DNA from: Lutibacter sp. HS1-25
GTDB lineage: Bacteria; Bacteroidota; Bacteroidia; Flavobacteriales; Flavobacteriaceae
Direction of reading: 5' to 3'
Length of the DNA stretch: 64,000 bases
Assembly: GCF_004121075.1 (NCBI RefSeq)
Contig: NZ_RHLN01000012.1
Span: 1 to 64,000 of the forward strand
Positions 1 through 60,906 of the stretch are shown here, piece by piece. The notes under the pieces are model-generated. The model had not been told where the DNA came from and did no database searches. It saw nothing but the letters and a program-made list of their open reading frames with translations. Position numbers and translations under genes: made by a program. Every line of letters begins with the position of its first letter. Position 1 is the first letter of the stretch.

Positions 1-1197
1 AAAATCATTCTTTTTTAAGGCGTGTGTATTTTTTAAGAAACCATCTGTTTTATCACTGTTTGATAAATCGGCTGAAGAAACAATCATATTCTCCACATTT
101 TGTGCTAAATAACCCAACACATTTGCTGAAGCTGCTCTGGTTGCCAATCCTGGTTTATTAACAATAGATTCAAAATTTAACGCTGGTAATTTTCCTGCTA
201 AAAAGCCATCTAACTTTTCTGCTAGTTCAGGATTGTCACTTCTCCATTTGCTTATTTCAGCTTTTTTTGCTGCTGCAGCTGCTTTTTTATTTTCTAAAAG
301 GGTTGCGTAAAACGCTTCAACATCGGCATATTTTGCAAAAGGATCGTTTACATCAGCACCTAAGTTTTTTAGGGTAGCATTAAAATCGGCTCCTGTATGT
401 CCAATTGGCTGTCCGTGTAGTTCACAATGTCCTTCCCAATTAGCACCTGTTTCAGTAACACAACCTTTACCCATAATGGTTTTACCAATTATTAAGGTTG
501 GTTTTTCTTGCTCATTATTAGCATCTTTTAAGGCTTTTCTAATCTCATCGTGGTTATGACCATCAATAGTTACTACTTTCCAACCCCAAGCTTCGTATTT
601 TTTTGCAGTGTCTTCTGATGTTACTTCATCAGTCATTGTAGATAATTGCACATCATTTGCATCATAGAACATAATAAAATTGTTCAATCCTAAATGTCCT
701 GCTATTCTTCCTGCTCCTTGTGAAATTTCTTCCTGAACGCCTCCATCTGAAATAAATCCGTAAATTTTATGATTCATCCAATAACCAAAACGTTCTGCTA
801 AAAATTTAGCTGCAATGGCTGCTCCAACACCCATTGTATGTCCTTGTCCTAATGGTCCTGATGTATTTTCAATTCCTCTTAAAACATCAACTTCTGGATG
901 ACCTGGAGTTACAGAACCCCATTGTCTGAAGTTTTTGATATCTTCTTTTTTATAATTACCCAATAAATAATATTGTGCATATAATAGGGTTGATAAATGT
1001 CCTGCATCCATAAAGAAACGGTCTCTAAATGGCCAAGACATATCACTTGGATCAAAGTTTAAAAATTCTGAATATAAAATATGCATAAAATCGGCGCCTC
1101 CCATTGGTCCTCCTGGATGTCCTGAATTTGCCTGCTCAACCATTGAAATGGCCAAAGCTCTTATATTGTCTGCTGATCTTAAATTTATGTTACTCAT
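1..1197 (-). CDS. tkt: Transketolase, N-terminal part (cut by window edge)
   Basis: An open frame runs without a stop from the ATG at 1195-1197 to the window edge, giving 399 residues of an enzyme usually about 660-690 long. Motifs of the thiamine-diphosphate domain are visible: GHPGGPMG near residue 26, a GHLSTLLY stretch, GPLGQG, and DGHNHDEI. Transketolase moves two-carbon units between sugar phosphates in the cytoplasmic pentose phosphate pathway. It starts 12 bases after the stop of the GH27 gene and so probably closes a glycosidase-symporter-GH27-transketolase operon. Its place there suggests that pentose, or sugar routed through xylulose-5-phosphate, comes from the substrate of this locus. 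The product is secure; the specialised role is inference. Confidence 0.95.
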   Translation of the reverse strand, partial: MSNINLRSADNIRALAISMVEQANSGHPGGPMGGADFMHILYSEFLNFDPSDMSWPFRDRFFMDAGHLSTLLYAQYYLLGNYKKEDIKNFRQWGSVTPGHPEVDVLRGIENTSGPLGQGHTMGVGAAIAAKFLAERFGYWMNHKIYGFISDGGVQEEISQGAGRIAGHLGLNNFIMFYDANDVQLSTMTDEVTSEDTAKKYEAWGWKVVTIDGHNHDEIRKALKDANNEQEKPTLIIGKTIMGKGCVTETGANWEGHCELHGQPIGHTGADFNATLKNLGADVNDPFAKYADVEAFYATLLENKKAAAAAKKAEISKWRSDNPELAEKLDGFLAGKLPALNFESIVNKPGLATRAASANVLGYLAQNVENMIVSSADLSNSDKTDGFLKNTHALKKNDF

Positions 1198-1209: not shown

Positions 1210-2532
1210 TTATCTTTTTATTAAATACATTTTAGCTCCGTGTGGTGCTACTTTTGCTGAAAAACTATCAGAAATATTGAACAAGTCTTCTTTTTTCCAC
1301 ACATCTCTCAATGATTGAATTCCTGACAGTTGTACTTCTGAAAAATTGAAAGTAATTTCTCTTTCATCATCTGAAACATTAAACAAGGCTACATAAATTC
1401 CCTTTTCATTTTCAGCTACCCATATTTTTTCGTTAGAATCACCTCTTAACAATCTATTATTCCAGCTATGTTGATTTACTTCTAAAACCTCTTCATTACT
1501 AATTAAACCAATTGTAAACTCGCTTGTTTTAGGTAAATTTCCTCCAAACATTAATGGCGAACGGAACATAGACCACAAAGTCATTACTGTTATTTGCTCA
1601 TCATTTGTGAAGTTTGAAACACGATTTATTCCGCCTGATTCACCTCTTGGCAAATCGCCTAATGGTAACATATCTGCATCTGGCCAATGACCTTCTGTTA
1701 CAAAAGGTGCCCATATTTCACATCGATCCATTTGAGCCTTTAACGAACCCCATTCATCCCAAAAATCTGCAGAAATACGCCATAGATTAGCGTGATTTCT
1801 CAAATGATTGATAATTGTGGTTTCAGGACCTCCTGGAGAAATACTAAATACAATTTCTCTTCCTGAATTGTTAATAGCCTTCGCCATTCCTTCAATATCA
1901 TCAATTCTGTAAGGAGAACCTTCCCCTGTTGGAGAACCACTACTTCTATGAACTTCAGACCAAGCATTTACATCATCGGCTTTGATATAATCTACCCCCC
2001 ATTGCGCATATAATTCAAATATAGAATCGTAATAGTTTTGTGCTTCTGGCTTTGAAAAATCCAATGTTCTTAAACTATTAAACCAAGGACAACGCTCTCT
2101 GTTGTAAGCTATTTGATCTGCAGTGACATTTGTTCCTTTTACTTTGGTTTTTTGTTGAACTGCTTGTACAGGAATACCACGCATAATATGAATTCCTAGC
2201 TTTAACCCTAAACTATGAATATAATCGGCCAGAGGTTTAAACCCTGCTCCGTTTACCGATGAAGGGAAGCGAATTGGATCAGGTATTAACCTTCCGTATT
2301 CATCAATTAATTGAGGAATATTTTCTGTTTTATAATTATGATTGTCAATCTCTGGTCCGTACCATCCTAAATCAACTACTACATATTCCCACCCATATTG
2401 CTTTAAGTTTTTTGCAATAAATTCGGCATTATCTTTTACTTCTTGTTCTGTTACATTGGTACCAAAACAATCCCAACTATTCCACCCCATTGGTGGTTTT
2501 AAAGCTCTTTTTGAGATTTTATTATTATTCAT
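1210..2532 (-). CDS. Glycoside hydrolase family 27 (alpha-galactosidase or beta-L-arabinopyranosidase)
   Basis: The 440-residue protein has the GH27 (beta/alpha)8 layout: PPMGWNSWDCFG at 13-24, the predicted nucleophile D186 in KADD, the predicted acid/base D256 in WRISADFWD, and the subfamily signature GHWPDADMLPLG followed by LWSMFRSPLMFGG. A small beta domain follows. There is no signal peptide, so it is probably cytoplasmic and works on sugars brought in by the neighbouring symporter. At 54-55 the usual DD pair of alpha-galactosidases is D-L. In characterised beta-L-arabinopyranosidases of this family an Asp in this pocket is replaced and specificity shifts to arabinose. The specificity is therefore open; the family is clear. 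It lies 13 bases behind the symporter gene. Confidence 0.93.
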   Translation of the reverse strand: MNNNKISKRALKPPMGWNSWDCFGTNVTEQEVKDNAEFIAKNLKQYGWEYVVVDLGWYGPEIDNHNYKTENIPQLIDEYGRLIPDPIRFPSSVNGAGFKPLADYIHSLGLKLGIHIMRGIPVQAVQQKTKVKGTNVTADQIAYNRERCPWFNSLRTLDFSKPEAQNYYDSIFELYAQWGVDYIKADDVNAWSEVHRSSGSPTGEGSPYRIDDIEGMAKAINNSGREIVFSISPGGPETTIINHLRNHANLWRISADFWDEWGSLKAQMDRCEIWAPFVTEGHWPDADMLPLGDLPRGESGGINRVSNFTNDEQITVMTLWSMFRSPLMFGGNLPKTSEFTIGLISNEEVLEVNQHSWNNRLLRGDSNEKIWVAENEKGIYVALFNVSDDEREITFNFSEVQLSGIQSLRDVWKKEDLFNISDSFSAKVAPHGAKMYLIKR

Positions 2533-2545
2533 TTTATTTTACTTT

Positions 2546-4303
2546 TTATAATATCACTGAAAACGTAACTATAATTCCTACTAACATCAACACACATAAT
2601 AGCCACCACAAGAAAATACTGTTATACCACTTTGTTCCTAATCCTTCTTTAAGTGCTTCACCATTGATATTAAAAACCAAATCATCACTAACTTGGTAAC
2701 CCGTAGGTTTTTTAGTTATTAATGTTGAACCTATACAAAGTATCATTGAAAACACCCAAGTTATTAACCCTTGATTTGCAAATGGCTTAATTATATTGGC
2801 GATTGTTGAAGTTGAATCCTGCAATGGACCAAATTCTAAATACTTTAACAAACCGGCCATTGCAAAACCACCAATAATAGTAACTAAAGCATCCTTTCCT
2901 CCAACTCTTTTCCAAATCATACCTAATAAAAACAATGCAGAAAATGGTGGTGCTATAAATGTATACAGTGCTTGAATAAGTACAAATAGATTTACCTTTG
3001 TTACTGTTGATAATATAATAGCAAACAATACTGATGTGCCTAAAAATATGATTCCTGAAACTTTACCTACATTAATATAATGGCCTTCGCTTTCGCTCTT
3101 TTTATAAACATCTCTATACAAATCAATAGTAAACATTGTTGAAGTTGAGTTTAACACAGAACTAACGGTAGACTGTATGGCTCCAAAAAGAGCTGCCAAT
3201 AAAATACCTTTCATAAAAGTTGGCACTAAAATATTGACCATTACAATATATGTTTTGTTGGCTTGTTCACTTTGAAAACTCCAATCACTTGAACTTAAAA
3301 ACTCAGGTTTCATAGCAAAAAATATCAATCCTGGAATTACCACAATAACCGGTAATAACAACTTTAAAAAACTTGCAAACATCATCCCAGCACGTGCATG
3401 GTACATGTCTTTTGCTGCAAATATTTTCTGAACCATTGTTTGATTGATAACTGTATACCAAAGTCCTATATAAAAGAAACTAAACACCCAATGTGTCCAA
3501 GGGTTTGTATCGTGATTTAAAGGCTGAATAACCGATAATCTATTATAGTTATCTCCAACATTTGAACCTTTTAAAATATTTGTCACATTGATATCAATCC
3601 AATCTTTTGCCCAGGCAATACCTCCAGTATTTACATCAATCATTTTTGAAAATCCTGAAAAAATCCCTTCACCTTCACCTAAATAAACCAATCCTAAAAA
3701 CGTAACTGTTAAACCTCCAAACACCATTATTAAAATGGTTAACACATCCATAAATGCAACCGATTTTAATCCACCCCATACAGCCCAACCACCAGTAGTA
3801 ATACCTATAATAATACATGCGTTAATTGGAGAAAGGTTAAAAAACTCGATTAAGATTAAGCTACCTCCATAAATTACAGGTCCCATAAAAGCAAAAACAT
3901 TTGCTAAGATTGAAACCAACGCAAAAATTAATCTTGTTTTTTTATTGAATCTTTTTTCTAAATATTCTGGAGTAGTATAAACTTTAGAAGTTAATAAGTA
4001 TGGTATAAAAAGCCATATCAAAAACGTGAAGGCAATTACAGTACTCCACTCACCTGTGGCTACACTAATTCCGTAAATAACTGCAGCTCCAATTAATCCA
4101 ATAAAATGTTCTGTACTTATATTAGCAGCTATATATGAACTACCAACAACGTACCAAGGTAAGGTTCTACCTGCTAAAAAATAATCAGAAGAACTATCAT
4201 TCTTTTTACGACCAAACCACCAGCCTATAAAACTTAAGACAGCAAAATATCCGAAAAAAGCAAAATAATCCCAAAAACCAAGTACAAAAATGCTATTCTC
4301 CAT
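2546..4303 (-). CDS. Sodium/solute symporter, SSS (SLC5) family sugar transporter
   Basis: This is a 585-residue inner-membrane protein with about 14 hydrophobic segments. The family hallmark DYFLAGRTLPWYVVG lies near residues 40-54, followed by SSYIAANISTEHFIG. Members couple Na+ entry to uptake of sugars such as glucose, galactose or xylose, and the SGLT-like pattern here (TPEYLEKRFNKKTR, GGLKSVAFMDV) fits a sugar substrate. The gene starts 2 bases after the stop of the beta-helix glycosidase and ends 13 bases before GH27, so the three are almost certainly co-transcribed. No SusC/SusD pair is present in this cluster inside the window, so outer-membrane entry must use another route. Confidence 0.93.
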   Translation of the reverse strand: MENSIFVLGFWDYFAFFGYFAVLSFIGWWFGRKKNDSSSDYFLAGRTLPWYVVGSSYIAANISTEHFIGLIGAAVIYGISVATGEWSTVIAFTFLIWLFIPYLLTSKVYTTPEYLEKRFNKKTRLIFALVSILANVFAFMGPVIYGGSLILIEFFNLSPINACIIIGITTGGWAVWGGLKSVAFMDVLTILIMVFGGLTVTFLGLVYLGEGEGIFSGFSKMIDVNTGGIAWAKDWIDINVTNILKGSNVGDNYNRLSVIQPLNHDTNPWTHWVFSFFYIGLWYTVINQTMVQKIFAAKDMYHARAGMMFASFLKLLLPVIVVIPGLIFFAMKPEFLSSSDWSFQSEQANKTYIVMVNILVPTFMKGILLAALFGAIQSTVSSVLNSTSTMFTIDLYRDVYKKSESEGHYINVGKVSGIIFLGTSVLFAIILSTVTKVNLFVLIQALYTFIAPPFSALFLLGMIWKRVGGKDALVTIIGGFAMAGLLKYLEFGPLQDSTSTIANIIKPFANQGLITWVFSMILCIGSTLITKKPTGYQVSDDLVFNINGEALKEGLGTKWYNSIFLWWLLCVLMLVGIIVTFSVIL

Positions 4304-4305
4304 AA

Positions 4306-5838
4306 TTATTTAATAATTTCAATATTAGTAACGAAGGTATTTGTATCAACATTAAGCTGATCAAAATCTGTTACAACCCCTTCATTTGTTTGTATATTTT
4401 TTAATTTGATTCCATCAATATTACTAGCAGTACTTTCACCTATTAATTGTTTTCCTATTTCAGCAAAACTTGCATTTATAGTAATATTTTCTAATAATAC
4501 ATTTCTTAATTTTCCACCACCGGCTCCTTGATAATTAGATTCTCCAATTTCTACATCAAATAAGTTTCCGTGATTTAATTGTACGTTTTTGAAAGTTAAA
4601 TTGTAAATATCTGCGCTTCCTCCGTGGCGAGCAGCAATAAAAGCTTTGTTAGTTCCTGTTAAACTCACTACGTTCTCTACCCAAATATCTTTTGCAAAAC
4701 CAGCGCCATTCCAAGTAAGCATAATGTCTCCGCCATTATTATCTAAACCCCAAAAAACCATATTTTTGATTCTTATATTTGACACAGAAACTCCAGTTAA
4801 TTCATCACTTCCGTCCCATTGTATTTCATCACTACCATTTTCTTTATCATACAAACCGGTAATACATATGCGATCATCATTGCTAGCAATAAAAGTATCT
4901 TCAAGCAACACACCCGAACTGTATGTATGTACGCCATCATTATTATGTTCACCAAAACCGCAAAGTTTTAAATTTCGCATAACAATATCTTTACAGTTTG
5001 CAACCTCCACCTGGTAACTAGGACTACTTCCTATAGCAATACCGTCTATTACAACATCTTGAGAATCAATAAAAACAATACCTAACCAATCTGCATCCCA
5101 TTCTTGCTCTCTTGCATTTTCGTCTTCTGAAGATTCCTCAGCATGTGGAACAAAAGATTGAGAAATAAACCCTCTACCTATAAGTTTAACGTTTTTCTTA
5201 TTTTTAGCTTTAATTGTAGCTTCTAAAATGGCACCACCAGCAACATAAACTGTATGAATTCCATTTACATATGGGTCCCAAGCCTGACCATATTGATGAA
5301 TCCCTGGTTCGAGAAACAATACACCTTTATCGTCTTTTGAAGGAATTAACATTTCTGGCAATTCTACACTAATTATAAAAGAATGCTCTTTGCCATTAAT
5401 TGTAGCGCTAACAACAAATTTTTCAGGTTGATTAATTGTGAGTGTTAAAGTTTGGTTTTCTTCATTTACAACGACACCTTCTCTAAAAGGTAACACTTTC
5501 CAGTTTGAAGCATTTTCTAATAAACATTTTACCTCTAGGGTAACACTTTCATTTGTTGAAAAATTTACATACGAAACACCATCATACGAAACACTTTTTA
5601 ACTGTTTTACATGTTCATGTTCATCTTTTATTTCTCGGGTATGGTAAACAAAGGCATCTTTATTGTTTACTTTTAAATCAAATATTGTTGATTCAGACAT
5701 ACCATGAATTTTGTCTATGTCTTTTACTGGTGGATACAGTACAACTGTATCTTGAGAAACTACTTCTTTTGATGTATCATTTTTACATCCAACAACTAAC
5801 AATAGTCCTACCAATAATGTTATAATTATTTTTTTCAT
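4306..5838 (-). CDS. Right-handed beta-helix glycoside hydrolase, lipoprotein (GH28/GH49/GH110-like)
   Basis: The N-terminus is a lipoprotein signal with lipobox VVGC (Cys about 18), so the enzyme is probably membrane-anchored in the periplasm or at the surface. An N-terminal beta-sandwich-like part is followed by a parallel beta-helix with repeated short strands (VKLIGRG, VVIDGIAIG, IVMRNLKLCG). Three acidic residues fall where polygalacturonase-type enzymes have their catalytic triad: the Asp of NNDGVH near residue 300 and the DD of SNDDR near 321-322, about 21 apart; an RHGG follows near 403. This spacing is shared by GH28, GH49 and GH110, so the substrate cannot be fixed. It is first in the operon with symporter, GH27 and tkt. 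Upstream repeats suggest control by the adjacent hybrid regulator. Confidence 0.8.
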   Translation of the reverse strand: MKKIIITLLVGLLLVVGCKNDTSKEVVSQDTVVLYPPVKDIDKIHGMSESTIFDLKVNNKDAFVYHTREIKDEHEHVKQLKSVSYDGVSYVNFSTNESVTLEVKCLLENASNWKVLPFREGVVVNEENQTLTLTINQPEKFVVSATINGKEHSFIISVELPEMLIPSKDDKGVLFLEPGIHQYGQAWDPYVNGIHTVYVAGGAILEATIKAKNKKNVKLIGRGFISQSFVPHAEESSEDENAREQEWDADWLGIVFIDSQDVVIDGIAIGSSPSYQVEVANCKDIVMRNLKLCGFGEHNNDGVHTYSSGVLLEDTFIASNDDRICITGLYDKENGSDEIQWDGSDELTGVSVSNIRIKNMVFWGLDNNGGDIMLTWNGAGFAKDIWVENVVSLTGTNKAFIAARHGGSADIYNLTFKNVQLNHGNLFDVEIGESNYQGAGGGKLRNVLLENITINASFAEIGKQLIGESTASNIDGIKLKNIQTNEGVVTDFDQLNVDTNTFVTNIEIIK

Positions 5839-6047: not shown

Positions 6048-6077
6048 AAAGCCTGTTAATTTTAATTAACAGGCTTT
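6048..6077 (-). terminator. Rho-independent terminator of the hybrid regulator gene
   Basis: A 14-base inverted repeat (AAAGCCTGTTAATT / AATTAACAGGCTTT) lies 46 bases after the regulator stop codon. On the minus strand it is followed by a run of T residues (plus-strand A run at 6044-6050). Confidence 0.85.
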
Positions 6078-6123: not shown

Positions 6124-9100
6124 TTAATCGTTATTTTTTAAATTTTTCACAAACTCTGAAGGGGTTACACCAAACTGTTTTTTAAAACTTTTTGTAAAAT
6201 GAGATTGGCTTTGAATTCCAACCTTATCCATTACCTGAATTATATTTAAATCTGAACTAGATAAAATTTGAGCTGCCTTTTTTAAACGAATCTCTCTTAT
6301 TAGGCCACCTACCGACTCTGAAGTTACTTCTTTAATTTTTGTATAAAGTTTGGTTTTGCTAATACCTAATAAACTACACAATTTAACAACATCAAAATCT
6401 ACATCTTCTATATTTTCATCTATACAATTTATTACATCTTTTAAAAATTCATCTTCAATATCTCCTTTTACATTTTTTCGAGCTTCTTCAAAAGTATTTT
6501 CTAATGTTGTTTCTTTGAGTTGTTTTCTTGTTCTTAAAATATTTAAAATTGTTAAATGCAATACTTCCATACTAAATGGCTTAGAAATATAGACATCTGC
6601 TCCAGATTGCGCACCTTCAATTTGACTTTCTACATTGTATTTTGCTGATAATAAAATAAATGGAATTCCACGATACTTGTAATTTTCTTTTACTTTTTTA
6701 CACAAAGTTACGCCGTCCATTTCAGGCATCATTATGTCGCTAATTATAACCTGAATTTTATGTTTCTCTAAAAGTTTAAGCGCTTCAACACCATTTTCTG
6801 CTTCAATTATATTAAATTCTTCGTCAAAATGATCTTTCACAAAACTTCTTAATTCTGAATTATCTTCAACCAACAGTACTTCTGGTTTTGTAAAAGTTTC
6901 AAACAACTTTAGTTTACTGTCTGTAATTATGCTTTGCTTATCTACAAAAGGACTTAATGCACTTTTAGAAAGCTGAACAGAATTTTCTAATTTTTGTTCA
7001 CCAAAAACCTCCTTAAAATCAATGTTAGGAATTGCTAAAATAAATTTTGTACCAATATTTTCTTGGCTAAAAACATGCAAATTTATATGATGAATACCTA
7101 CCAAACTTTTGACCAACGTTAACCCTATTCCAGATCCTTGTATGTCCGATGCATTGTCTCCTTGAAAGAATCTATCAAAAATAAATTCCATCGAACGCTC
7201 ATCAATACCTTTACCGGTATCTTCTATTGTTAAGTATACGTAATCTGGTGCGTTGTAATCAGATTTAATATGATTGGAATGTGCATATCTAAAATTACTT
7301 TTTTCAGGTTTATCATTTAATCTCACTGAAATTTTACCTCCATTTGGAGTAAATTTCAAAGCATTTCCTAAAATATTAAAAATAATTTTCTCTAGTACCG
7401 ATCTATCGAATTGCAACTCTTTAATTTGTAAATTATTTTCAAAATTTAATTCTATAGATTTATTTTCAGCTGTAGCTATAAATGACTCTTGTATTTCATT
7501 AAAAAATGGAGCAATTTCATGTAACCTAGCCTTTAACTTATAAGAGTCGGAATTTACTTTTCTGTAGTCTACCAATTCATTAATTAATCTTAAAAGTCTT
7601 TTGGCATTTTTGTACATTAATTGATAATACTTTTCCTTTTTATAATCGTTACTTTCATCATTACTCATTAACTTCTCCAAAGGATTTAAAATTAAAGTTA
7701 AAGGAGTTTTAAATTCATGAGAAATATTGGTAAAGAACTGGCTTGTTAACTGAAATAATTTATCTTTTTCTTGTTCATGAATCAAAGAAACTTCATAATC
7801 ATTTTTTAATTTAAACCATCTTACAATTGCCAAATAGCCAACAATAAGAATGAGGATAAAAAATAATATATAGAAAAAAATAGCTGTATTTGTTAACCAC
7901 CAAGGTGCTAATATGGTAATTTTTAAAGTTTTCATTTCATCTGACCAAACACCATCATTGTTAGTTGCTTTTACTTTAAAAATATATTCTCCGTATGGAA
8001 GGTTTGAATAACTAGCCTTTCTATCGTTAGATTCGGCATAAATCCATTCTTCGTTATATTTAGACAATTTATATTTAAATTGAGTTCTGCTAGGATTTGC
8101 AAAATGCAGTGAAGAAAACTGTATTTGAAAATTATTTTCTAAATAATTTAAGGTAATTTCTTCAACAGAATTTATTGAAGATTTTAATATTTGATTGTCA
8201 TCATCATCACTTTTAAAAACATTTACAATTTTATTATTAACATATAAATTAGTTAAAACAACTCGTGATTTATAATTGTTAACTAATATGTTTGAGGGTA
8301 AAAAGTAATTAAGACCAGCTGTACTACCAAAATAAAAATTTCCACTTTTACCATGATAAGACGCCCCAACCTTAAAACTATTACCAACCAAACCATCTTC
8401 TTTGTCAAAATTTGTAAATTCTTCTTTTTCAATATTAAACATTGACAACCCCTTACCGCCTAACCAAAGCTCATTATTTTTACTATCGTATAAAATACTT
8501 TCAATATCTGTTGAAGGCGCTCCTTCAGCAACAGAATATTTTTTTGCCTTATAGCCTAACTCATATTTAGGACTTATAATCAATTTATCTAAACCGCCTC
8601 CCAAAGTTCCAACCCATAAGGTTGAATCGTTTTCACGAACTATTGGCCAAATCCAATTTGAACTGATACTATTTTTATAATCTACATTTCCTATATAATG
8701 TAAAATTTCTTTAATGGTTCCATCTTCATTTAAAAAAATATGGTTTAAACCATTATCTGTTCCAACAAACACTTCAGGATAATAATCATCTGCATAAACA
8801 AATGTTATTACATTTGATGACAAACCATATTTATCTCCTTCTGTTTTTTTAAAAACATGTTCAATTTTGTAATTATTTATGTTGTCATATTCAATTCTAT
8901 TCAAACCCTTTAACCATGACCCAGCCCAAATGTTTCCAAATTTATCTTTTGCTAGTGAAAAAATAATATTGTTTGAAATTGAAGGTTTACTTTTTTCATC
9001 ATCAGATATCTTTAGAAATTTATCAGACTTGTTTTCTAAAATGTTCAAACCTTCAACAGTAGCAACCCATAACCTTTCCTTGTTATCTAGTACCAAGCTT

Positions 9101-10389
9101 CTAATTTTATTACTTGATATACTACTTGAATTTTCAGCATGATGTTTAAAAACCTTGACTTTATTTGTTTTTAAATCATAATAATTAAGCCCGGTCTTTT
9201 CAGTACCAATCCAAACATTACCATCATTATCTTCTAAAACAGCTCTAACATAATTTTCAGAAATAGTGTTTGTTGAATTTGCCTCGTGCTTAATAGAATT
9301 AAATTTTTTCTGATTTAAATCAACATAACTTACACCTCCATCGTAATTAGATATCCATAAAATTCCTGAGCTATCTTTTAACAAACCAATTATTGAGCTC
9401 GATGATAAATTAGAATTCTCCTCGTTAAAATAACTAAACTCATATGTGGTATTTACCAAATTTGCTTTTACTAAACCGTAACTTGTAGCTATCCAATAAT
9501 CATTATTTAATCCTTTTTCAAAAGAACTTATATAGAATTGATTATCAAAAATATTTTTATTACTGATGTATGGATTTTCAATTTTATAATAAGAAGCTGA
9601 TAAACTATTTTCATTTACTTTATCAAAAACTGCAGTATTTGCTTTTAAAAAACCTCCTTCGGTTCCCAATAACAAATAATTTGTTTCACTGGTATTTAAA
9701 CCCGTAAGCATATTGTAATTATTATTACCTGTAGAAACTTTTATTCGCCTTAAATTAACTTTATTATTTGATTTTTGAACGTAATACAACCCAACATTTG
9801 AAACAACCCACTCCAAGCCATTTTCATCAATTTTCATATCTAAAAAATTTGCTTGTTTAGGTACTTCTGGAAGAAAATTTTCGCTTAAAGTAATTTCATT
9901 TAAACCATTAAATTGAATTGAAAAAACTTTAAAATAATTATTTGCCAATACATAAATGGTATTCTCTTTTGAAACATAAACAGAATTTAATTTAATGTTG
10001 ACTAATGGTGAATTGTCATTTAATTTCCACTTTAACTTTAAAAATGATTCTGTATTTACATTAAAACATTCAATTCCACCTTGGGTAACCAACCACAGAT
10101 AATTATCCTTAGGAATAATTTTTGAAATTCTATTTTTATAAACACTTTCAAAAGGATTGTTTTGATTTGAAAATGTTTTTAAGTCGTACCCATCATATCT
10201 ATTTAAACCTCCAAGAGTACCAAACCATATAAAACCTGCTTCATCTTGAACAATTGAAGTTACGTCGGAATGCGCTAAACCGTCATCGACAGAAATTTTA
10301 TTAAATCTTAAATCTATCTCTTGAGAAAAAAGAGTTGGCAATGCAATTATAAATGCCAAGAAAAAGACAATAGTTTTATGTATTCTCAT
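6124..10389 (-). CDS. Hybrid two-component system sensor/regulator (HTCS)
   Basis: The 1421-residue single-chain regulator is typical of Bacteroidetes polysaccharide loci. A signal peptide ends at FSQ (about 23). About 750 residues of periplasmic propeller repeats follow (many DxxGxxWIGT-like units), then a Y_Y_Y domain (about 765-835), one membrane segment (about 845-868), a HisKA domain with NISHEFKTPL, a HATPase domain with DTGKGI and GSGIGL, a receiver with phospho-acceptor Asp in ISDIMMPEMDG, and a C-terminal AraC-type HTH. The sensor binds an oligosaccharide in the periplasm and the HTH activates nearby genes. It lies between the glycosidase operon and the mutarotase. Short repeats in front of both this gene and the glycosidase suggest control of both. 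Confidence 0.96.
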   Translation of the reverse strand: MRIHKTIVFFLAFIIALPTLFSQEIDLRFNKISVDDGLAHSDVTSIVQDEAGFIWFGTLGGLNRYDGYDLKTFSNQNNPFESVYKNRISKIIPKDNYLWLVTQGGIECFNVNTESFLKLKWKLNDNSPLVNIKLNSVYVSKENTIYVLANNYFKVFSIQFNGLNEITLSENFLPEVPKQANFLDMKIDENGLEWVVSNVGLYYVQKSNNKVNLRRIKVSTGNNNYNMLTGLNTSETNYLLLGTEGGFLKANTAVFDKVNENSLSASYYKIENPYISNKNIFDNQFYISSFEKGLNNDYWIATSYGLVKANLVNTTYEFSYFNEENSNLSSSSIIGLLKDSSGILWISNYDGGVSYVDLNQKKFNSIKHEANSTNTISENYVRAVLEDNDGNVWIGTEKTGLNYYDLKTNKVKVFKHHAENSSSISSNKIRSLVLDNKERLWVATVEGLNILENKSDKFLKISDDEKSKPSISNNIIFSLAKDKFGNIWAGSWLKGLNRIEYDNINNYKIEHVFKKTEGDKYGLSSNVITFVYADDYYPEVFVGTDNGLNHIFLNEDGTIKEILHYIGNVDYKNSISSNWIWPIVRENDSTLWVGTLGGGLDKLIISPKYELGYKAKKYSVAEGAPSTDIESILYDSKNNELWLGGKGLSMFNIEKEEFTNFDKEDGLVGNSFKVGASYHGKSGNFYFGSTAGLNYFLPSNILVNNYKSRVVLTNLYVNNKIVNVFKSDDDDNQILKSSINSVEEITLNYLENNFQIQFSSLHFANPSRTQFKYKLSKYNEEWIYAESNDRKASYSNLPYGEYIFKVKATNNDGVWSDEMKTLKITILAPWWLTNTAIFFYILFFILILIVGYLAIVRWFKLKNDYEVSLIHEQEKDKLFQLTSQFFTNISHEFKTPLTLILNPLEKLMSNDESNDYKKEKYYQLMYKNAKRLLRLINELVDYRKVNSDSYKLKARLHEIAPFFNEIQESFIATAENKSIELNFENNLQIKELQFDRSVLEKIIFNILGNALKFTPNGGKISVRLNDKPEKSNFRYAHSNHIKSDYNAPDYVYLTIEDTGKGIDERSMEFIFDRFFQGDNASDIQGSGIGLTLVKSLVGIHHINLHVFSQENIGTKFILAIPNIDFKEVFGEQKLENSVQLSKSALSPFVDKQSIITDSKLKLFETFTKPEVLLVEDNSELRSFVKDHFDEEFNIIEAENGVEALKLLEKHKIQVIISDIMMPEMDGVTLCKKVKENYKYRGIPFILLSAKYNVESQIEGAQSGADVYISKPFSMEVLHLTILNILRTRKQLKETTLENTFEEARKNVKGDIEDEFLKDVINCIDENIEDVDFDVVKLCSLLGISKTKLYTKIKEVTSESVGGLIREIRLKKAAQILSSSDLNIIQVMDKVGIQSQSHFTKSFKKQFGVTPSEFVKNLKNND

Positions 10390-10583: not shown

Positions 10584-11765
10584 TTATTCACCAATAATTC
10601 CAAATTTATAAATACAAACTGAGTTGTACTTTTCACCAGGTTTTAACAAAGTGCTTGGGAAATTTGTTTGATTTGGAGAATCTGGAAAATGTTGTGTTTC
10701 TAAACAAAAAGCTCCTCTATAGTTATAGGGCTTTCCACTTTTCCCAACTGTTTTTCCGTCTAAAAAATTTCCTCCATAAAATTGTAAACCAGGTTCATTT
10801 GTATAAATTTCCATAACCCTACCATGTTCAGGTTCCTCAACTCTGGCTGCAAAAATTAATCCAGCCTCGTTTTTTGGTTCTTCATTCAAAACAAAATTAT
10901 GATCATAACCAAAACCATTAGAAAGTTGTTCATTTTCAATTTCTAAATCCCTACCTATCGTTTTTGGTGAAGTAAAATCGAATGGAGTGCCCACAACACT
11001 CTCAATTTCCCCTGTCGGAATTAAGGTCTTATTTACAGGAGTATATGCATTCGCATTAATGGTTAAAATATGATTGTTAATACTTCCTTCACCGTCACCT
11101 TTTAAGTTAAAAAACGAATGATGCGTTAAATTTACAACTGTAGGTTTATCTGTGGTTGCCTCATACTTCATTACTAGCTCGTTTTCATTGGTTAAAGTAT
11201 AAGTTACTTTTACATTTAAATTTCCAGGATAACCTTCTTCCATATCAGGTGATAAACGGCTAAATTCTAATTTATTTTCAGCAAGCTGAACACCTTTCCA
11301 AATTTCATCATTAAATCCTTTAGCCCCTCCGTGCAAATGATTTTCACCATTATTTGTAGCCAAAGTATATGTTTCACCATCAATGCTAAATTTCCCTTTA
11401 GCAATTCTGTTTCCATAGCGTCCAACTGAACTTCCAAAATAATTTTCACTGGCATTTTTATATTCATCCAAAGTATAAAAACCTAAAACTATATCCGCCA
11501 AATTACCATCCTTATCTGGCACCATTAAAGTTACCAAACGCTGACCATAATTGGTGAAAGTTGCCGAAAGATTGTTCTTGTTTTTTATAGTAAATAATTT
11601 AATAGCGTCATCGTTCCCTTTAAATGTTTTCTCATTTAATTTTAACGTTGTCGACATATTTTGATCTAACAATCCTGCTTCATTTTTTTTATCGACATTG
11701 TTTTTACAGGCTACAAAAACCAACACAAAAATTACAGGAATTACAAATATTATTTTACGGAGCAT
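10584..11765 (-). CDS. galM: Aldose 1-epimerase (mutarotase), lipoprotein
   Basis: The chosen ATG at 11763-11765 gives a lipoprotein signal with lipobox FVAC; a start 17 codons upstream would spoil the signal. Mutarotase features follow in order: NRIAKGKF, ENHLHGG with the first His, NLTHHSFFNLKG with the second His, GLQFYGGNFLDG and ALCLETQHFPDSPN, whose Glu is the expected base. The enzyme interconverts alpha and beta anomers of aldoses such as galactose, glucose, xylose or arabinose. The lipobox places it at a membrane rather than in the cytoplasm, so it would equilibrate sugars released by the nearby glycosidases before uptake. It is divergent from the GH2 gene and 194 bases upstream of the regulator gene. 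Confidence 0.92.
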   Translation of the reverse strand: MLRKIIFVIPVIFVLVFVACKNNVDKKNEAGLLDQNMSTTLKLNEKTFKGNDDAIKLFTIKNKNNLSATFTNYGQRLVTLMVPDKDGNLADIVLGFYTLDEYKNASENYFGSSVGRYGNRIAKGKFSIDGETYTLATNNGENHLHGGAKGFNDEIWKGVQLAENKLEFSRLSPDMEEGYPGNLNVKVTYTLTNENELVMKYEATTDKPTVVNLTHHSFFNLKGDGEGSINNHILTINANAYTPVNKTLIPTGEIESVVGTPFDFTSPKTIGRDLEIENEQLSNGFGYDHNFVLNEEPKNEAGLIFAARVEEPEHGRVMEIYTNEPGLQFYGGNFLDGKTVGKSGKPYNYRGAFCLETQHFPDSPNQTNFPSTLLKPGEKYNSVCIYKFGIIGE

Positions 11766-11999
11766 TTTAAAATTTTTAAAAGTTATAATTGTAAAATTAA
11801 GCAACCTTAAAAACAACTAATATCATAATTGTTCCAAATAATAGTTAATTTGTTTTATTCAACACATTTATTTTAAATATTATGTTCTTTTTTATTGAAA
11901 CGTAAATATTTAGACAAAGCAGCAATTATCTAGTTCAATTAAACAAATCATAGCTATCACATACTCATAAATTTACAATAAAATTTAACTTAAATTATT
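11766..11999. other. Divergent intergenic region between mutarotase and GH2 genes
   Basis: This very AT-rich 234-base stretch must hold the promoters of both divergent genes. I find no exact TAnnTTTG box in usable position and no copy of the TTTTGTGYWATTTT motif found at the other promoters of this cluster. Confidence 0.4.
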
Positions 12000-14927
12000 A
12001 TGAGATATTTAGCTTTTACTTTCGCAATTTTCATTTCTTTCCACATACAAGCTCAAAAATTAGATTTTGTAGATCTTACATCTTCCAAATGGCGCCTTTG
12101 GTTAGACAAGGATGCTACTTGGGTTGATGATGAATTACATTTAAAACCAAACTTGCAAGACCTTCCAAACAATCCACCTACTACAGGATGGGAATCACTT
12201 CAAAAAAATGGTATTGAAATTAATATTCCGGCAACTGTTGAAGAATATTTTTGGGGTAAAAATGGAAACGATTTTGGGATAGCTGGTGATTATATTGGTG
12301 TTTCCTGGTTTTCAACTAAATTCAAAGCAAATGAAAATTGGAAAGGAAAACGCATCTTATTAAATTTTGAAAGTACACGTTTACGAGCTGAAATTTACAT
12401 CAATAATCAATTAGCTGGTTACGACATGTTTAACGGAACGCCTTTTACAGTTGAAATATCAAATTATATAGATTACACAAAAGAAAATGAACTTGCCGTA
12501 AGAATCACGGATCCCGACGGGAATTTTGCCTGGATTGACTTTTTAAATGATAAATGGGGTGGAAAAAAGCCATTAAGTGCCAGCCACGGCTTTGGCGGTA
12601 TAACTGGTGGTGTAAACATTACGGTAAAGGATCAAACTTATATTGAAGATGTTTTTGTTAAAAACACCCCCGAAATTACAAAAATTGATATTGAAACCAC
12701 TTTTAATAGCCTTAACAATTCGGTTTCAGGTGAATTGATTGCTGAACTTTTTAAAACTGAAAATAAGGTACTTTTATCTAAGAGTATCCAGGTCCTAAAC
12801 AACAATCAAACTAACTTTAGTTTTAATTTTCCAAAAGCAAAACTTTGGTCTATTGAAAATCCGAACCTTTACTATGTAAAATTAACCTGGAAAGGAAATG
12901 ATGGAAGTACAGATTCAATTACGAAGCGTTTTGGTTTTAGATGGTTTGATGTGGTTGATGTAAACGGCGATAAACAATTTCACTTAAATCATAAAAGAGT
13001 GATGTTACGCACATCTATTTCTTGGGGCTATTGGCCTGTTAACGGAATAATTCCAAACAAAGAATTGGCAAAAAAACAAATTCAGATTGCGAAAGATTTA
13101 GGACTAAATATGTTAAATTTCCATAGAGGCATTGGACAAGAAATGATTTTAGATTTAGCTGACGAAATGGGATTGCTGTATTATGCAGAACCTGGAGGGT
13201 ACAAAACTGGGATGAATTCAGAATTTTCTCAGGAAATGAATAGAGAACGTTTAAAAAGAATGATGGTACTTTTTAGAAGTCACCCTTCACTTGTACTATA
13301 CAACATGATTAACGAATCTACTCGTGATCCTGAACCTTTTGAAATTGAAGATATACAGTTAGCGCATACTTGGGATGAAACCAGAGCAATCACTTTTACG
13401 TCAACAAATTTTTCAAAAAGAATGAATTATGAAAATAATATGAATCCTGAAAAAATCGAAGCTCCTGTAAAATTGCACATGCTACCTTATAACCATAAGC
13501 CTCTTTACAAAGGTTGGTGGGATATGCATTATGCTGACGGACCAGGAGTTTACTTAGATAAATTTTATAACGACCCTACTAATTTTCATAAAAATTCAAC
13601 AAATAAAGAAGAAATTATTATGTGGGGAGAAGATGGTGCAATAGGAACTCCTCATAGATTGGAATTAATTAACAAAGAACTACAAGGAAAAAATTTAGGA
13701 TGGGACGGTCAAGCATACATCAATCAATTTAACGCTTTTGATCGTTTTTTAACCGATAAAGGTTTTAGAACAGCTTTTCCAACAGTTGACGACCTTACTC
13801 AAAGTTTAGGAGCTGTGGCAATGTATTATCAAGGTCGAATTATTGAAAATGTGCGAATTAGCAATGTTGTAGACTGCTATGTTGTAAATGGCTGGGAAGG
13901 TGAAAAAATAGAAAACCATTCTGGTATTGTTGATATTTTCAGAAACCCAAAAGCAGATCCGAAAATAATGGCACACTACAATCAACCGCTCTTTATAGCT
14001 GTAAAGGCTCAAGAATTGGTTTTAGAGAAAGGAAAAAATGCTTCAGTAGATTTTTATATTGTAAATGAAAAAAATATAAAAGGCAAGCATCTATTAGAAA
14101 TTTCTGTAACTGATAGTAGTGGTGAAATCTATAAAAAATCATTTACTGTAAACGTAACAGGAGGAACTACTTATGGTGAACTTTTAAAAAACGGAATCAA
14201 ATTCAACGTAAATAATAATGGGTATGTTACAGTAAATACCACCTTAAAAAAAGGAAATAAAACAATTGCCTTTGGTAGCGAGAAACTATTTGTAACATCA
14301 TTAAATAACAAATTACCAACTATTACTATTTCAGACACGACTAATTATTTGCCTGAAATTTTAAAAGAGATCGCTATTGTTAAAAACAATGTCACTGCTG
14401 TTAAAACGCAAGATATTGAAACACAGGTAATGGTTACAGACAACTTTACAGATTTGTTTGGAAAACAAAAATTCCCATTAAGACAAGACATTTTACAATG
14501 GCTAAATCACGGAAATAAATTGGTAATTATTGATGATGTTGAAAAATTTGCCGAGTGGCTTTCAGCTAAAGAAGTGATGGATTATAGAGGTAACAGGAAA
14601 ATAAAAACCAATTGGTATGGTGGTAATTATTTTGTAAAAGAAGATGGTATTTTCAATGAATTACCTGTTGATACCGCTTTCAATTGGGAGTATCAATGTT
14701 TGGCTGGTTATGAAAACAATCGTTTTGGTATTCGTTGTGAAAATGGAGAAACTATTGTTGGCATCTATGCTGATCATAAAGAAGAACTATTTTCGGCGAT
14801 TGTTAGAATTCCGGTTGGAAGAGGCGAAATTATCATTTCAACATTAGATTTAAAAAAAGCAATAAAATCAAATACTTCCGCAAGTATTGTAGCCAAAAAA
14901 ATATTACAGAATATGATTCTTTATTAA
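12000..14927 (+). CDS. Glycoside hydrolase family 2, secreted (beta-galactosidase type)
   Basis: The 975-residue protein has an N-terminal signal peptide ending in QAQ (about 19). A jelly-roll sugar-binding domain (about 40-205, with FESTRLRAEIYINNQLAGY), an immunoglobulin-like domain (about 210-315) and a TIM barrel (from about 320, RTSISWGYWP) follow. The predicted acid/base is E439 in NMINEST and the predicted nucleophile E544 in MWGEDGA; their separation of 105 fits the family. About 250 C-terminal residues are not typical of LacZ and may be an extra beta domain. GH2 covers beta-galactosidase, glucuronidase, mannosidase and others, so the substrate is open. It is followed after 13 bases by the ThuA-like gene and belongs to the sugar cluster. 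Confidence 0.88.
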   Translation: MRYLAFTFAIFISFHIQAQKLDFVDLTSSKWRLWLDKDATWVDDELHLKPNLQDLPNNPPTTGWESLQKNGIEINIPATVEEYFWGKNGNDFGIAGDYIGVSWFSTKFKANENWKGKRILLNFESTRLRAEIYINNQLAGYDMFNGTPFTVEISNYIDYTKENELAVRITDPDGNFAWIDFLNDKWGGKKPLSASHGFGGITGGVNITVKDQTYIEDVFVKNTPEITKIDIETTFNSLNNSVSGELIAELFKTENKVLLSKSIQVLNNNQTNFSFNFPKAKLWSIENPNLYYVKLTWKGNDGSTDSITKRFGFRWFDVVDVNGDKQFHLNHKRVMLRTSISWGYWPVNGIIPNKELAKKQIQIAKDLGLNMLNFHRGIGQEMILDLADEMGLLYYAEPGGYKTGMNSEFSQEMNRERLKRMMVLFRSHPSLVLYNMINESTRDPEPFEIEDIQLAHTWDETRAITFTSTNFSKRMNYENNMNPEKIEAPVKLHMLPYNHKPLYKGWWDMHYADGPGVYLDKFYNDPTNFHKNSTNKEEIIMWGEDGAIGTPHRLELINKELQGKNLGWDGQAYINQFNAFDRFLTDKGFRTAFPTVDDLTQSLGAVAMYYQGRIIENVRISNVVDCYVVNGWEGEKIENHSGIVDIFRNPKADPKIMAHYNQPLFIAVKAQELVLEKGKNASVDFYIVNEKNIKGKHLLEISVTDSSGEIYKKSFTVNVTGGTTYGELLKNGIKFNVNNNGYVTVNTTLKKGNKTIAFGSEKLFVTSLNNKLPTITISDTTNYLPEILKEIAIVKNNVTAVKTQDIETQVMVTDNFTDLFGKQKFPLRQDILQWLNHGNKLVIIDDVEKFAEWLSAKEVMDYRGNRKIKTNWYGGNYFVKEDGIFNELPVDTAFNWEYQCLAGYENNRFGIRCENGETIVGIYADHKEELFSAIVRIPVGRGEIIISTLDLKKAIKSNTSASIVAKKILQNMILY

Positions 14928-41766: not shown

Positions 41767-43785
41767 TTACAATGTTGCCTTCTCTAAAACAATGCTTTCT
41801 AGATTTTTACTAACTATGTCTTTAAAAAAAACTTTAAGCGTATCATAATCTAACGCTGGATATATTGCAGTATTAATTTTTAAATACGACTTAACATTTA
41901 TTGAATTTCCTGAAGTTAAAACATCAAATAAATACATACCATAATTATTTGGCAGACCAATGGCTATTTTTTCAGGAATAGAGGCTACTTTGTAACCCTC
42001 AGGTATTGCAATTGAAACTGTAACATTGTCAATCAGTGGAGTTCCAAAATCAATTGGGTATTCTCTTTTTTCTAATTTAAAAGGATTTTCAGTTTCTGAT
42101 TTAAATAACAATGGCTTTATATAAATTTTATCTCCTACACGATCAACAAGATTTTCACTATTGAATCTATACATTTCAACAACAGACTTATAAAGATCTT
42201 TTTTATTGTCAACCCTTAATTCTTCAATTTCTATTTTATTCTTATCTTCAATTTTAGTAATAATATCTTCATCTTTAAGTTTACAATAAGTATCTCTGTA
42301 ATTTATAGCTCTTAAATTAGTGTAACTATTTCTTACCATTCCTGATACTTCTCCAAGTTCATCAACTTTAATAATTATTTTTGAATTTACTTCAGATGGT
42401 TCAGTAGGAATTAAATCTATTGAAATTGAAGATTTATCATCTCTAATTAATCTTCCTTGCCAATTTAAATCCCTTAGCGGTAAATTATTTGGAGTACTAT
42501 TTTGGTCGGTAGCATCTAACAATATAATTTTATCATCTAATTCTACCCCTGCAATTACAAAATTAAAACCTTCAATAGTTGGGTATAAGGGTATACCATG
42601 AGATCTAGTACTAATTAAGACAGGATTTGCTTTAAAACCAGCTGTATTTAACATTGAAACCAAATTTAAATTGATATCAGCTGCATTACCTACACCCTCT
42701 TTGTAGGCTTGTCTAGTACCATTTTCTGTTGTAAAACCGTTGAAATTATTCCATTTAATTTTTCGTTTCACCAATTCAAGAATTCCATTAATTTTATCCG
42801 AATTTGTTTTAGCCGAATCTAAAACCACGGCTAAATCTTCATTATAATGATTTGATTTATAAATTTGATTGCTAAAATCTGAATCGTTATAAATAGATTT
42901 AGTTACATCTTCCCAACTATTTGCATAGTACTTAACTGGTTCGTTTGGCCAATGCAATTCTGAATATTCATATTCTACTGTAGCCCTATAATTGTCAATA
43001 TTATTAATATAAGGCTCTTCAATTAATGCAGGAACATCGTTAACATCATAGATCTCTTTAGTTATTATATAATCAATATTAGTTTGTGAAAAATTAGTAG
43101 TTCCTGAAGGTGTCCACCCAGTTCCTTCAGCTCTAGATTTAGTATTAAATATAATATTTCCTCTTTTCTTTTCAACTTTTGGAGACACAAGATAATAACC
43201 CTTTGAACTTTTATTGTACACAAAATACTCAGGAATCTCTATCTCAATATGCATCTTTTTCACAGGAATACCATATTGAAATTGAAGATTATCAATAGAT
43301 TTAAATGGCGAAGAAATTTTGTATTTCCACTCTACAATACATCCTGGACTTAAATTAGGCATTGTGAATTTTTGCTGAGACCAATATTTATTTATCTCTT
43401 CATCAAAAACATCTTTATTACTTAAATCTGTCTCAACAATTTTACCATTATTAATACTAAAAGTTGTTGCTTTTAAAGACGATACTTTCTCATTTGCAGA
43501 AGAAGATTTATAATATTTTATACTTTTTGTAGCCCAATCAAAACCTTCAGTATTGTATATTTTTATTCGAACATGAACATCTGTAACAACCTCAAAACCC
43601 ACCCCTTGAATGTATTCAAAATGGGTATATCTTTTTTTATATAAAATAGCTGCATTTGCTGAAGAATCTAGCGGATAATAGGTTTCCTCAAGCTCTTCTT
43701 TTGAAACTTTTCCAAATTTATAATCTTGCGCTATTAGTTGTGCCATGTTAAAAACAATGACTAGAGTAATTAAAATCTTTTTCAT
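41767..43785 (-). CDS. DUF3857 protein with degenerate transglutaminase-like domain
   Basis: The 672-residue secreted protein (signal peptide to LIAQ) has an N-terminal DUF3857 beta domain, a transglutaminase-like middle part and a C-terminal beta domain. In the middle part the Cys of the catalytic pattern is replaced: GVGNAADIN (Ala at about 368) stands where the upstream neighbour has GYGDCKGLS, and the His position reads NFVI in place of NHII. It is therefore probably a non-catalytic paralogue. Its ATG overlaps the stop of the upstream paralogue by one base, so the two are likely made together. Confidence 0.85.
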   Translation of the reverse strand: MKKILITLVIVFNMAQLIAQDYKFGKVSKEELEETYYPLDSSANAAILYKKRYTHFEYIQGVGFEVVTDVHVRIKIYNTEGFDWATKSIKYYKSSSANEKVSSLKATTFSINNGKIVETDLSNKDVFDEEINKYWSQQKFTMPNLSPGCIVEWKYKISSPFKSIDNLQFQYGIPVKKMHIEIEIPEYFVYNKSSKGYYLVSPKVEKKRGNIIFNTKSRAEGTGWTPSGTTNFSQTNIDYIITKEIYDVNDVPALIEEPYINNIDNYRATVEYEYSELHWPNEPVKYYANSWEDVTKSIYNDSDFSNQIYKSNHYNEDLAVVLDSAKTNSDKINGILELVKRKIKWNNFNGFTTENGTRQAYKEGVGNAADINLNLVSMLNTAGFKANPVLISTRSHGIPLYPTIEGFNFVIAGVELDDKIILLDATDQNSTPNNLPLRDLNWQGRLIRDDKSSISIDLIPTEPSEVNSKIIIKVDELGEVSGMVRNSYTNLRAINYRDTYCKLKDEDIITKIEDKNKIEIEELRVDNKKDLYKSVVEMYRFNSENLVDRVGDKIYIKPLLFKSETENPFKLEKREYPIDFGTPLIDNVTVSIAIPEGYKVASIPEKIAIGLPNNYGMYLFDVLTSGNSINVKSYLKINTAIYPALDYDTLKVFFKDIVSKNLESIVLEKATL

Positions 43786-55106: not shown

Positions 55107-55152
55107 AATTGTAATTTTTTAAAATTTATAAAAACAAGTATTTATAAGAATG

Positions 55153-57231: not shown

Positions 57232-57238
57232 ATTTTTA

Positions 57239-59152: not shown

Positions 59153-59256
59153 AGTTGGATTTTTTATACTAAAATTGTAATACAGTAAATTTAATAATTA
59201 GATATGCTAAAAGTTTTATTTTTTCGACCAAAAGCTGCTAATGAGCGACAAAAAAC

Positions 59257-59281
59257 AAACGGGAATGATTAATTCCCGTTT
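59257..59281 (-). terminator. Terminator between susD and nagB
   Basis: A perfect 10-base stem (AAACGGGAAT / ATTCCCGTTT) with a 5-base loop lies 44 bases after the susD stop, followed by a short T-rich tail on the minus strand. It probably lowers read-through from susCD into the catabolic genes. Confidence 0.8.
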
Positions 59282-59324
59282 GAAAACATTTAATTAATCC
59301 ATTTTAAATTTCGTTTTTAGAAAT

Positions 59325-60902: not shown

Positions 60903-60906
60903 TGTC

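Follow-up and report, generated by a model that had tools for sequence, protein, structure and literature searches.

The window, the whole stretch of 64,000 nucleotides of Lutibacter sp. HS1-25 that was analysed, belongs to contig C12, and a run of minus-strand genes around a GH27 gene lies at its left end. The host is probably marine, as judged from its relatives and its sulfatases. The features of the locus are as follows:

1..1197, minus strand: transketolase, N-terminal 399 residues, cut by the left contig end
1210..2532, minus strand: GH27 protein of the Abp (Group VI) side, predicted cytoplasmic beta-L-arabinopyranosidase (sequence and structure matches, alignment)
2546..4303, minus strand: sodium:solute symporter (SSS), named by Pfam
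4306..5838, minus strand: GH49-like beta-helix protein, predicted lipoprotein (leader by eye), named by profile match to 6nzs
6048..6077, minus strand: terminator-like hairpin, 13 pairs and a T tail, between the HTCS gene and the GH49-like gene (hairpin search)
6124..10389, minus strand: hybrid two-component system regulator (HTCS), named by Pfam
10584..11816, minus strand: aldose 1-epimerase (GalM-like), possibly part of the locus

The gaps on the minus strand are 12 bp between the GH27 gene and the transketolase start, 13 bp between the GH27 and symporter genes, and 2 bp between the symporter gene and the GH49-like gene. The hairpin suggests that the operon starts with the GH49-like gene, and weakly so, since the region holds two terminator-like sites against 1.9 expected by chance. 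Past the epimerase gene a 975-aa GH2 protein (12000-14927) with distant named matches only, the best PDB match being a beta-glucuronidase (E 7.7e-21), precedes a ThuA-domain protein; they are encoded divergently with respect to GalM and the HTCS. Further along the window are two neighbouring DUF3857 proteins (41767-45692), one with a transglutaminase core, and a separate SusC/SusD locus (54249-63999) with GH20, a fused glucosamine-6-phosphate isomerase/PIG-L protein, and a BadF-type ATPase, which looks like a locus for amino-sugar use.

The GH27 gene is an intact ORF of 440 aa, and frame 1 of the plus strand over the same positions is stop-rich and closed. Its product matches Melibiase_2 and Melibiase_C in Pfam. 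The initial annotation had placed an Asp-Leu pair at residues 54-55 and catalytic aspartates at D186 and D256, and both are borne out in this translation: D54-L55-G56-W57 lies within the segment YVVVDLGWYG, and a 114-row alignment pairs L55, D186, and D256 with I67, D197, and D255 of Geobacillus stearothermophilus Abp (GsAbp), and D54 with D66. The family and the catalytic residues are established by sequence, with Asp186 as the predicted nucleophile and Asp256 as the predicted acid/base, and a retaining enzyme is expected from family knowledge. The barrel motif PPMGWNSW is reached already by residue 13 and no hydrophobic leader was seen by eye. Because there is no export signal, and because the neighbours are a symporter and genes of pentose catabolism, the protein is most likely cytoplasmic.

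The best PDB match of the window GH27 is GsAbp (4nx0, E 7.8e-125), and BH1870 of Bacillus (Halalkalibacterium) halodurans (3cc1) matches at 3.1e-124; the best alpha-galactosidase in the same search reached 2.7e-35. With 48% identity over 409 columns, GsAbp is the nearest characterised enzyme. An AlphaFold model built from 30 sequences had a pLDDT of 90.4, but residues 193-203 were below 50 and the clade-specific loop described below is therefore uninterpretable in it. This model confirmed the GH27 fold and had GsAbp as its best structural match: the GsAbp entries (4nx0/4nxk/4nzf) gave Z scores of 55.4-55.8, with an rmsd of 1.6 over 425 residues at Z 55.8, as compared to 46.8 for BH1870 and 42.6 for the best alpha-galactosidase.

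Group VI of GH27 was defined by McKee and Brumer in 2015 by an Ile at the specificity position and by the inserted loops L6, L7, and L8 (PMC4598101). The window GH27 has the GH27 fold with two catalytic aspartates and, as judged by position in the alignment, the three inserted loops; its segment lengths are about those of GsAbp and greater than those of three Asp-type rows (30 vs 7, 34 vs 22, and 30 vs 17-26). It also clusters with GsAbp and BH1870 and not with the alpha-galactosidases. The branch parting these three from eight Asp-Asp rows had a support of 100 in the 114-row tree and 100/100 in a 70-row tree, and the alpha-galactosidase chains 6f4c and 1uas have Asp-Asp at the specificity pair. 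Thus, as to the phylogeny, the window GH27 is not grouped with alpha-galactosidases carrying Asp-Leu, and no characterised GH27 with this pair is present among the 114 rows, in which only GsAbp has been assayed and BH1870 is represented by a structure only. To our knowledge, no GH27 enzyme that has Leu in the specificity position has been characterised. The Ile of Group VI is absent, and because Leu55 is in its place the protein would be a variant of Group VI and not a plain member. It shares with GsAbp the fold, the catalytic pair, the long segments, and an aliphatic specificity residue, and differs from it in having Leu for Ile67 and Gly for Gln68 and in being encoded near a symporter and sulfatases.

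The initial annotation had taken the non-Asp pocket residue as a mark of arabinopyranosidases. This holds in so far as Leu55 stands opposite Ile67 of GsAbp, but the position alone is not decisive. In Chitinophaga pinensis CpArap27 (Cpin_5740) the I56D mutant gained a weak galactosidase activity and still preferred the arabinoside, and I56A and I56C cleaved both sugars, because of which the residue at this position cannot by itself set the specificity (PMC4598101). In GsAbp, I67D raised galactoside hydrolysis and lowered arabinoside hydrolysis about threefold each (PMC4598101), and in the beta-L-arabinopyranosidase APSE of Arabidopsis the residue is a bulky Tyr (PMC5853685). CpArap27 is like the window GH27 in being on the Group VI side, in its aliphatic residue (Ile56), and in its link to arabinogalactan, and is unlike it in being secreted, in having Ile, and in being the sole GH27 of its genome (PMC4598101), whereas the window genome has three.

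The Pfam names, the galactose-type aldose 1-epimerase close by, and the C6-sized space that the I56A and I56C mutants regain are all compatible with the window GH27 being an alpha-D-galactosidase or alpha-N-acetylgalactosaminidase with an odd pocket residue that acts on galacto-oligosaccharides. It counts for this identity as well that most characterised GH27 enzymes are alpha-galactosidases. However, the Asp by which the C6 hydroxyl is held is replaced by Leu, the arabinoside is the preferred substrate of the nearest characterised enzyme, the tree sets the window GH27 apart from the eight Asp-Asp rows, and araA, araB, and araD accompany its closest relatives, as shown below. On pocket, tree, context, and structural match (Z 42.6 vs 55.8) we have set the alpha-galactosidase identity aside as improbable. 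The initial annotation had raised the possibility of a beta-L-arabinopyranosidase, and GsAbp as nearest characterised enzyme, the side taken in the tree, and the araA/araB/araD context support it; hydrolysis of beta-L-arabinopyranosides (EC 3.2.1.88) is therefore the predicted activity.

Relatives of the window GH27 were scanned in 84,980 species genomes, and the best 80 of the 567 confirmed relatives, which are not all Group VI, were taken for comparison. Among these 80, the five best-ranked named relatives (52-66% identity), which come from three phyla, have D-L-(G/A)-W at the specificity position. Their loci are:

L026, Allomuricauda MAG
L027, Draconibacterium sediminis
L028, Marinagarivorans MAG
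L029, Alteromonas sp. KUL49
L030, Puniceicoccaceae MAG

One further locus, L053, is 52% identical to the window GH27 over a shorter stretch and has Ile. The 114-row alignment comprises the window GH27, the named loci from the best 80 of 567, a class sample, paralogues, genus relatives, and two PDB chains, and its specificity position is Ile in 85 rows, Phe in nine, Asp in eight, Leu in six with the window GH27 included, Tyr in four, and Gln and Ala in one each; the other 100 non-Asp rows thus hold 85 Ile, 15 Phe, Tyr, Gln, or Ala, and no Leu. The class sample of 395 genomes contributed 18 more loci, in 16 genomes besides the host's, and none of these has Leu at this position. Trees computed without the pocket and active-site columns place the six Leu rows in one clade, with SH-aLRT 93 for all 114 rows and UFBoot 99 / SH-aLRT 99 for 70 rows, a set from which five rows with long branches and half the Ile rows were omitted. 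A split with the Ile rows together on one side had a support of 48 in the larger tree and was not recovered in the smaller, and neither tree firmly supports an order of branching between the Leu clade and the rows with Ile or with Phe/Tyr. Near home the protein is rare: among 40 genomes, that is the host's own, 24 of the genus, and 15 of the order, G024 had the best match outside the host (E 1.9e-54, with Ala at the position), which is the only strong match among the 24 same-genus genomes, and the rest were at E 1e-25 or weaker.

The Leu clade is invariant for eight residues, each of which no more than 5% of the Ile rows share, namely L55, K68, A185, N189, W191, G203, N242, and A255; Ala185, Asn189, Trp191, and Ala255 are among the differences from GsAbp. 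Between landmarks 184 and 228, past the nucleophile strand, the window GH27 has 44 residues and GsAbp has 32, a difference of 12. The motif of this longer loop, KADDxN.W ... GSPTGxGSPYR, is common to L026-L029 and the window GH27, and in L030 the loop is short and the Trp is kept. The Leu-clade enzymes perhaps have their own +1 site, as judged from these residues.

The flanks of the five Leu loci were compared by tblastn at 1e-20 with those of the remaining 75 named loci among the best 80 of 567. All five Leu loci have, immediately upstream of the GH27 gene, a homologue of the symporter of the window (truncated in L029), and none of the 75 does (p 4e-8). An araA gene is near GH27 in three of five against four of 75 (p 0.004) and a sulfatase gene in four of five against one of 75 (p 2e-5); full 10-kb flanks were available for 44 of the 75, and among those 44 there were three with araA and none with a sulfatase. 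These p values, and the genome p value given below, ignore descent, the loci and genomes being non-independent and the queries coming from the window genome. In three of the five named relatives araA, araB, and araD lie within about 7 kb of GH27, and no ara genes were found in the stretches of L027, which has full flanks, and L029, which has only 1.4 kb upstream. NCBIfam cut-offs were passed, by at least one model each, for AraA, AraB, and AraD of host contig C4, AraB of L026, AraB and AraD of L028, and AraA, AraB, and AraD of L030. The order in L026 is GH49-like gene, symporter, GH27, araB, araD, symporter, araA, sulfatase, GH27, and GH43. Every one of the five genomes has at least one more GH27 (Group VI profile, E 3.1e-151 or better), and a GH49-like gene, a sulfatase gene, and a GH27 gene come together within about 8 kb on another contig of Alteromonas KUL49 and within about 9 kb in the Allomuricauda genome. 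As for the other window genes, a 34%-identical HTCS adjoins GH27 in L027, and the HTCS at 6124..10389 is a possible sensor for the locus, while a gene 50% identical to that of the epimerase is within the L030 locus. The presence of araA, araB, and araD near three and of the symporter beside all five Leu-clade loci points independently to L-arabinose, and the symporter is predicted to import the arabinoside or L-arabinose.

This context bears also on BH1870, which is titled alpha-N-acetylgalactosaminidase. Like the window GH27 it is on the Group VI side, and its counterpart in strain DSM 497 (L083) is near araA, araB, and araD; it differs in having Ile, and the L083 stretch has no sulfatase match. 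The L083 context and the Ile argue that 3cc1 may be a beta-L-arabinopyranosidase.

The eight clade-fixed residues that differ from the Ile rows, several of them just past the nucleophile (A185, N189, W191), and the longer loop in five of the six clade members might be taken to mean that these enzymes acquired a new +1 subsite and turned to a different axial glycoside that lacks C6 or is 6-deoxy, such as an alpha-D-fucoside. The ara genes found close to three of the five loci indicate L-arabinose instead, the scanned proteins included none recognised as specific to D-fucose, and we regard such a drift as very improbable.

The initial annotation had also argued that the transketolase gene in the same operon fits pentose release. 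The layout is as claimed, on one strand and 12 bp apart, but the argument is weak alone because a near-identical second copy adjoins xylose genes; the araA/araB/araD context is the stronger form of it. C12 begins within transketolase, and two other contigs of the host, C4 (from about residue 494) and C139 (from residue 314), also begin inside transketolase and have transaldolase next, while C27, a xylose operon with xylulokinase, xylose isomerase, and permease (named by eye), ends inside transketolase. In the relative G011 the homologues are in the order xylB-xylA-permease-transketolase-transaldolase, and its 11-kb stretch has no match to the C139 or C4 genes beyond the transketolase-transaldolase pair; the G009 and G013 stretches have no transketolase match. 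The copies differ at two of 1197 positions between C12 and C27 (N parts) and at none of 560 between C139 and C4, none of 258 between C139 and C12, and none of 325 between C139 and C27. The pair thus exists as two near-identical copies, from a recent duplication or gene conversion, and this probably broke the assembly. Since the copy differences are uninformative, the join was proposed from gene order: after transketolase, C4 has transaldolase, araB, araD, a symporter, araA, and a GH27 lipoprotein, which matches the L026 order without the transketolase-transaldolase pair, and then sulfatases, GH43, GH49-like genes, and two SusD. By this synteny the C12 transketolase most likely continues on C4, with about 94 residues missing between them; C12-C139 is the other possible join.

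C4 (138 kb) carries the only araA match of the window genome, 13 of its 38 Pfam sulfatase matches, 12 GH43 proteins among 40 scanned C4 proteins, GH2, and two SusD genes. Each SusD gene is preceded by a large gene whose N-terminal domains are of the SusC type, and a TonB plug is seen only in the first of these. The PUL features, namely SusC/SusD, CAZymes, and sulfatases, are therefore on C4, to which the window part would be linked through the proposed join. The three related GH27 proteins of the genome have Leu (window), Phe, and Tyr at the specificity position, and the two on C4 are:

C4:7000-8334, GH27 with lipoprotein-type leader (by eye), Phe at the specificity position, close counterpart in L026
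C4:89567-90871, GH27 with lipoprotein-type leader (by eye), Tyr at the specificity position, close counterpart in L030

The 4306-5838 protein has no Pfam match. A profile (A1) of four sequences, two of the window genome (4306-5838 and C4:86469), one of G024, and one of L026, matched the GH49 dextranase 6nzs (E 2.6e-32) and an isopullulanase (1wmr, 1.8e-24), and GH28-type and related chains much more weakly (5.8e-6 and up). The match of the 4306-5838 protein runs across the beta-helix domain, and its D301, D321, and D322, which we take to be the catalytic aspartates of the clan, are invariant in the four sequences. A single-sequence AlphaFold model had a pLDDT of 36.6 and was unusable, and so the GH49 assignment rests on the profile search. 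On C4 the profile has strong matches to C4:86469, itself a profile member, to C4:76102, which carries CBM6 and a type IX secretion tail, and to C4:71780, and weak ones to three smaller proteins. The latter (C4:8359-9375, C4:16530-17537, and C4:17557-18624) have no Pfam match and are 52-54% identical to the first of them, and a profile of the three had dextranase 6nzs as its sole PDB match (1.5e-12); they are possibly a distant GH49-like family. Known GH49 enzymes act on alpha-glucans. Unlike the GH49 dextranase and isopullulanase, the GH49-like genes of the window genome sit with GH27, ara genes, and sulfatases, and from this context their proteins would act on an axial linkage other than that of an alpha-glucan; the 4306-5838 protein is a candidate backbone-cleaving or trimming hydrolase.

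All five Leu-clade genomes, which are not all of the sampled class, have GH49-like genes (E 1e-10), the one of L026 being a profile member, as do 12 of the 394 other genomes of the class sample. With the own genome excluded, four of 16 genomes with GH27 (E 1e-60) have GH49-like genes against eight of 378 genomes without (Fisher p 7e-4). These results speak to the proposal that the exchange of Ile for Leu is neutral, the enzyme being otherwise an ordinary GsAbp-like one, and that the neighbourhood is unrelated. Leu is similar to Ile in size, and relatives of the window GH27 are common, with at least 567 confirmed, not all of them Group VI. Nevertheless, the GH49-like co-occurrence and the clade-specific loop speak for a distinct role, as does the symporter pairing in five of five loci against none of 75, though five related loci are few. 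A neutral swap thus seems unlikely to us.

Taken together, the likely explanation is that the window GH27 is a cytoplasmic beta-L-arabinopyranosidase of the Group VI side in a pathway, spread over C12 and C4, for a sulfated L-arabinose-rich polysaccharide; here we infer the activity, the cytoplasmic site, the transport, the polymer, and the C12-C4 join from the family, the Leu clade, and the gene context observed. Leu55 would fill the space that in alpha-galactosidases is held by the Asp for the C6 hydroxymethyl group, and the -1 pocket would admit the C6-less beta-L-arabinopyranose and disfavour alpha-D-galactose. Outside the inner membrane the sulfatases, GH43s, GH49-like proteins, and the two GH27 lipoproteins would dismantle the polymer, the symporter would import a small arabinoside or arabinose, and in the cytoplasm the window GH27 would split the small beta-L-arabinopyranosides that have been taken up. 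AraA, AraB, and AraD would then channel the L-arabinose to transketolase and transaldolase.

The polymer is plausibly a sulfated pyranosic beta-L-arabinan of Bryopsidales or Cladophorales green seaweeds. Pyranosic beta-L-arabinans are cell-wall polymers of several green seaweeds, the sulfated ones being 3-linked in Codium and 4-linked in Cladophora, and beta-L-Arap has the C1-C4 configuration of alpha-D-Galp (PMC7550628). This shared configuration fits GH27 and would also fit an axial-linkage enzyme such as GH49. The GH43s and GH2 of C4 fit arabinofuranose, xylose, or galactose units equally well.

A credible alternative, to which we give less than even weight, is that the enzyme is a beta-L-arabinopyranosidase that removes terminal beta-L-Arap from arabinogalactan proteins (AGPs) of plants or algae and does not act on a pyranosic arabinan. 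GsAbp and CpArap27 attack larch arabinogalactan (PMC4598101), the GH43 and GH2 genes of C4 fit AGP side chains, and Bacteroides plebeius grows on sulfated AGP of Codium with candidate loci that hold GH2, GH27, GH43, and GH145 (PMC8406133). These loci resemble C4 in combining sulfatase with GH2, GH27, and GH43 and in their tie to a Codium polysaccharide; B. plebeius, unlike the window host, is a gut bacterium, and the part of that report drawn on here mentions neither ara genes nor GH49 for its loci (PMC8406133). Against an AGP substrate, the marine arabinogalactan user Maribacter was reported to have no GH27 in such a role (PMC11036162), and the window GH27 seems cytoplasmic while the two other GH27s, on C4, start like lipoproteins. 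It also counts against this substrate that no AGP locus known to us equals C4 in its number of sulfatases and GH49-like genes.

Returning to the arabinan, a search of the open-access full-text literature found no bacterial locus or enzyme set for a pyranosic sulfated arabinan. We propose, tentatively and as a possibility short of an even chance, that the locus belongs to an undescribed pathway for the sulfated pyranosic beta-L-arabinans of Codium, Cladophora, and Caulerpa, in which the window GH27 would be the last, cytoplasmic step, the GH49-like proteins would be the missing endo- or exo-beta-L-arabinopyranases, acting with the three GH27s with Leu, Tyr, and Phe pockets and the sulfatases, and the core of which would have moved between Bacteroidota, Gammaproteobacteria, and Verrucomicrobiota. 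If this is the case, the locus names sets of enzymes that can be cloned and assayed, among them a GH27 of the Leu type and GH49-like proteins whose role would be new, and these would provide tools for sequencing anticoagulant arabinans and a marker of the turnover of these polymers in the sea.
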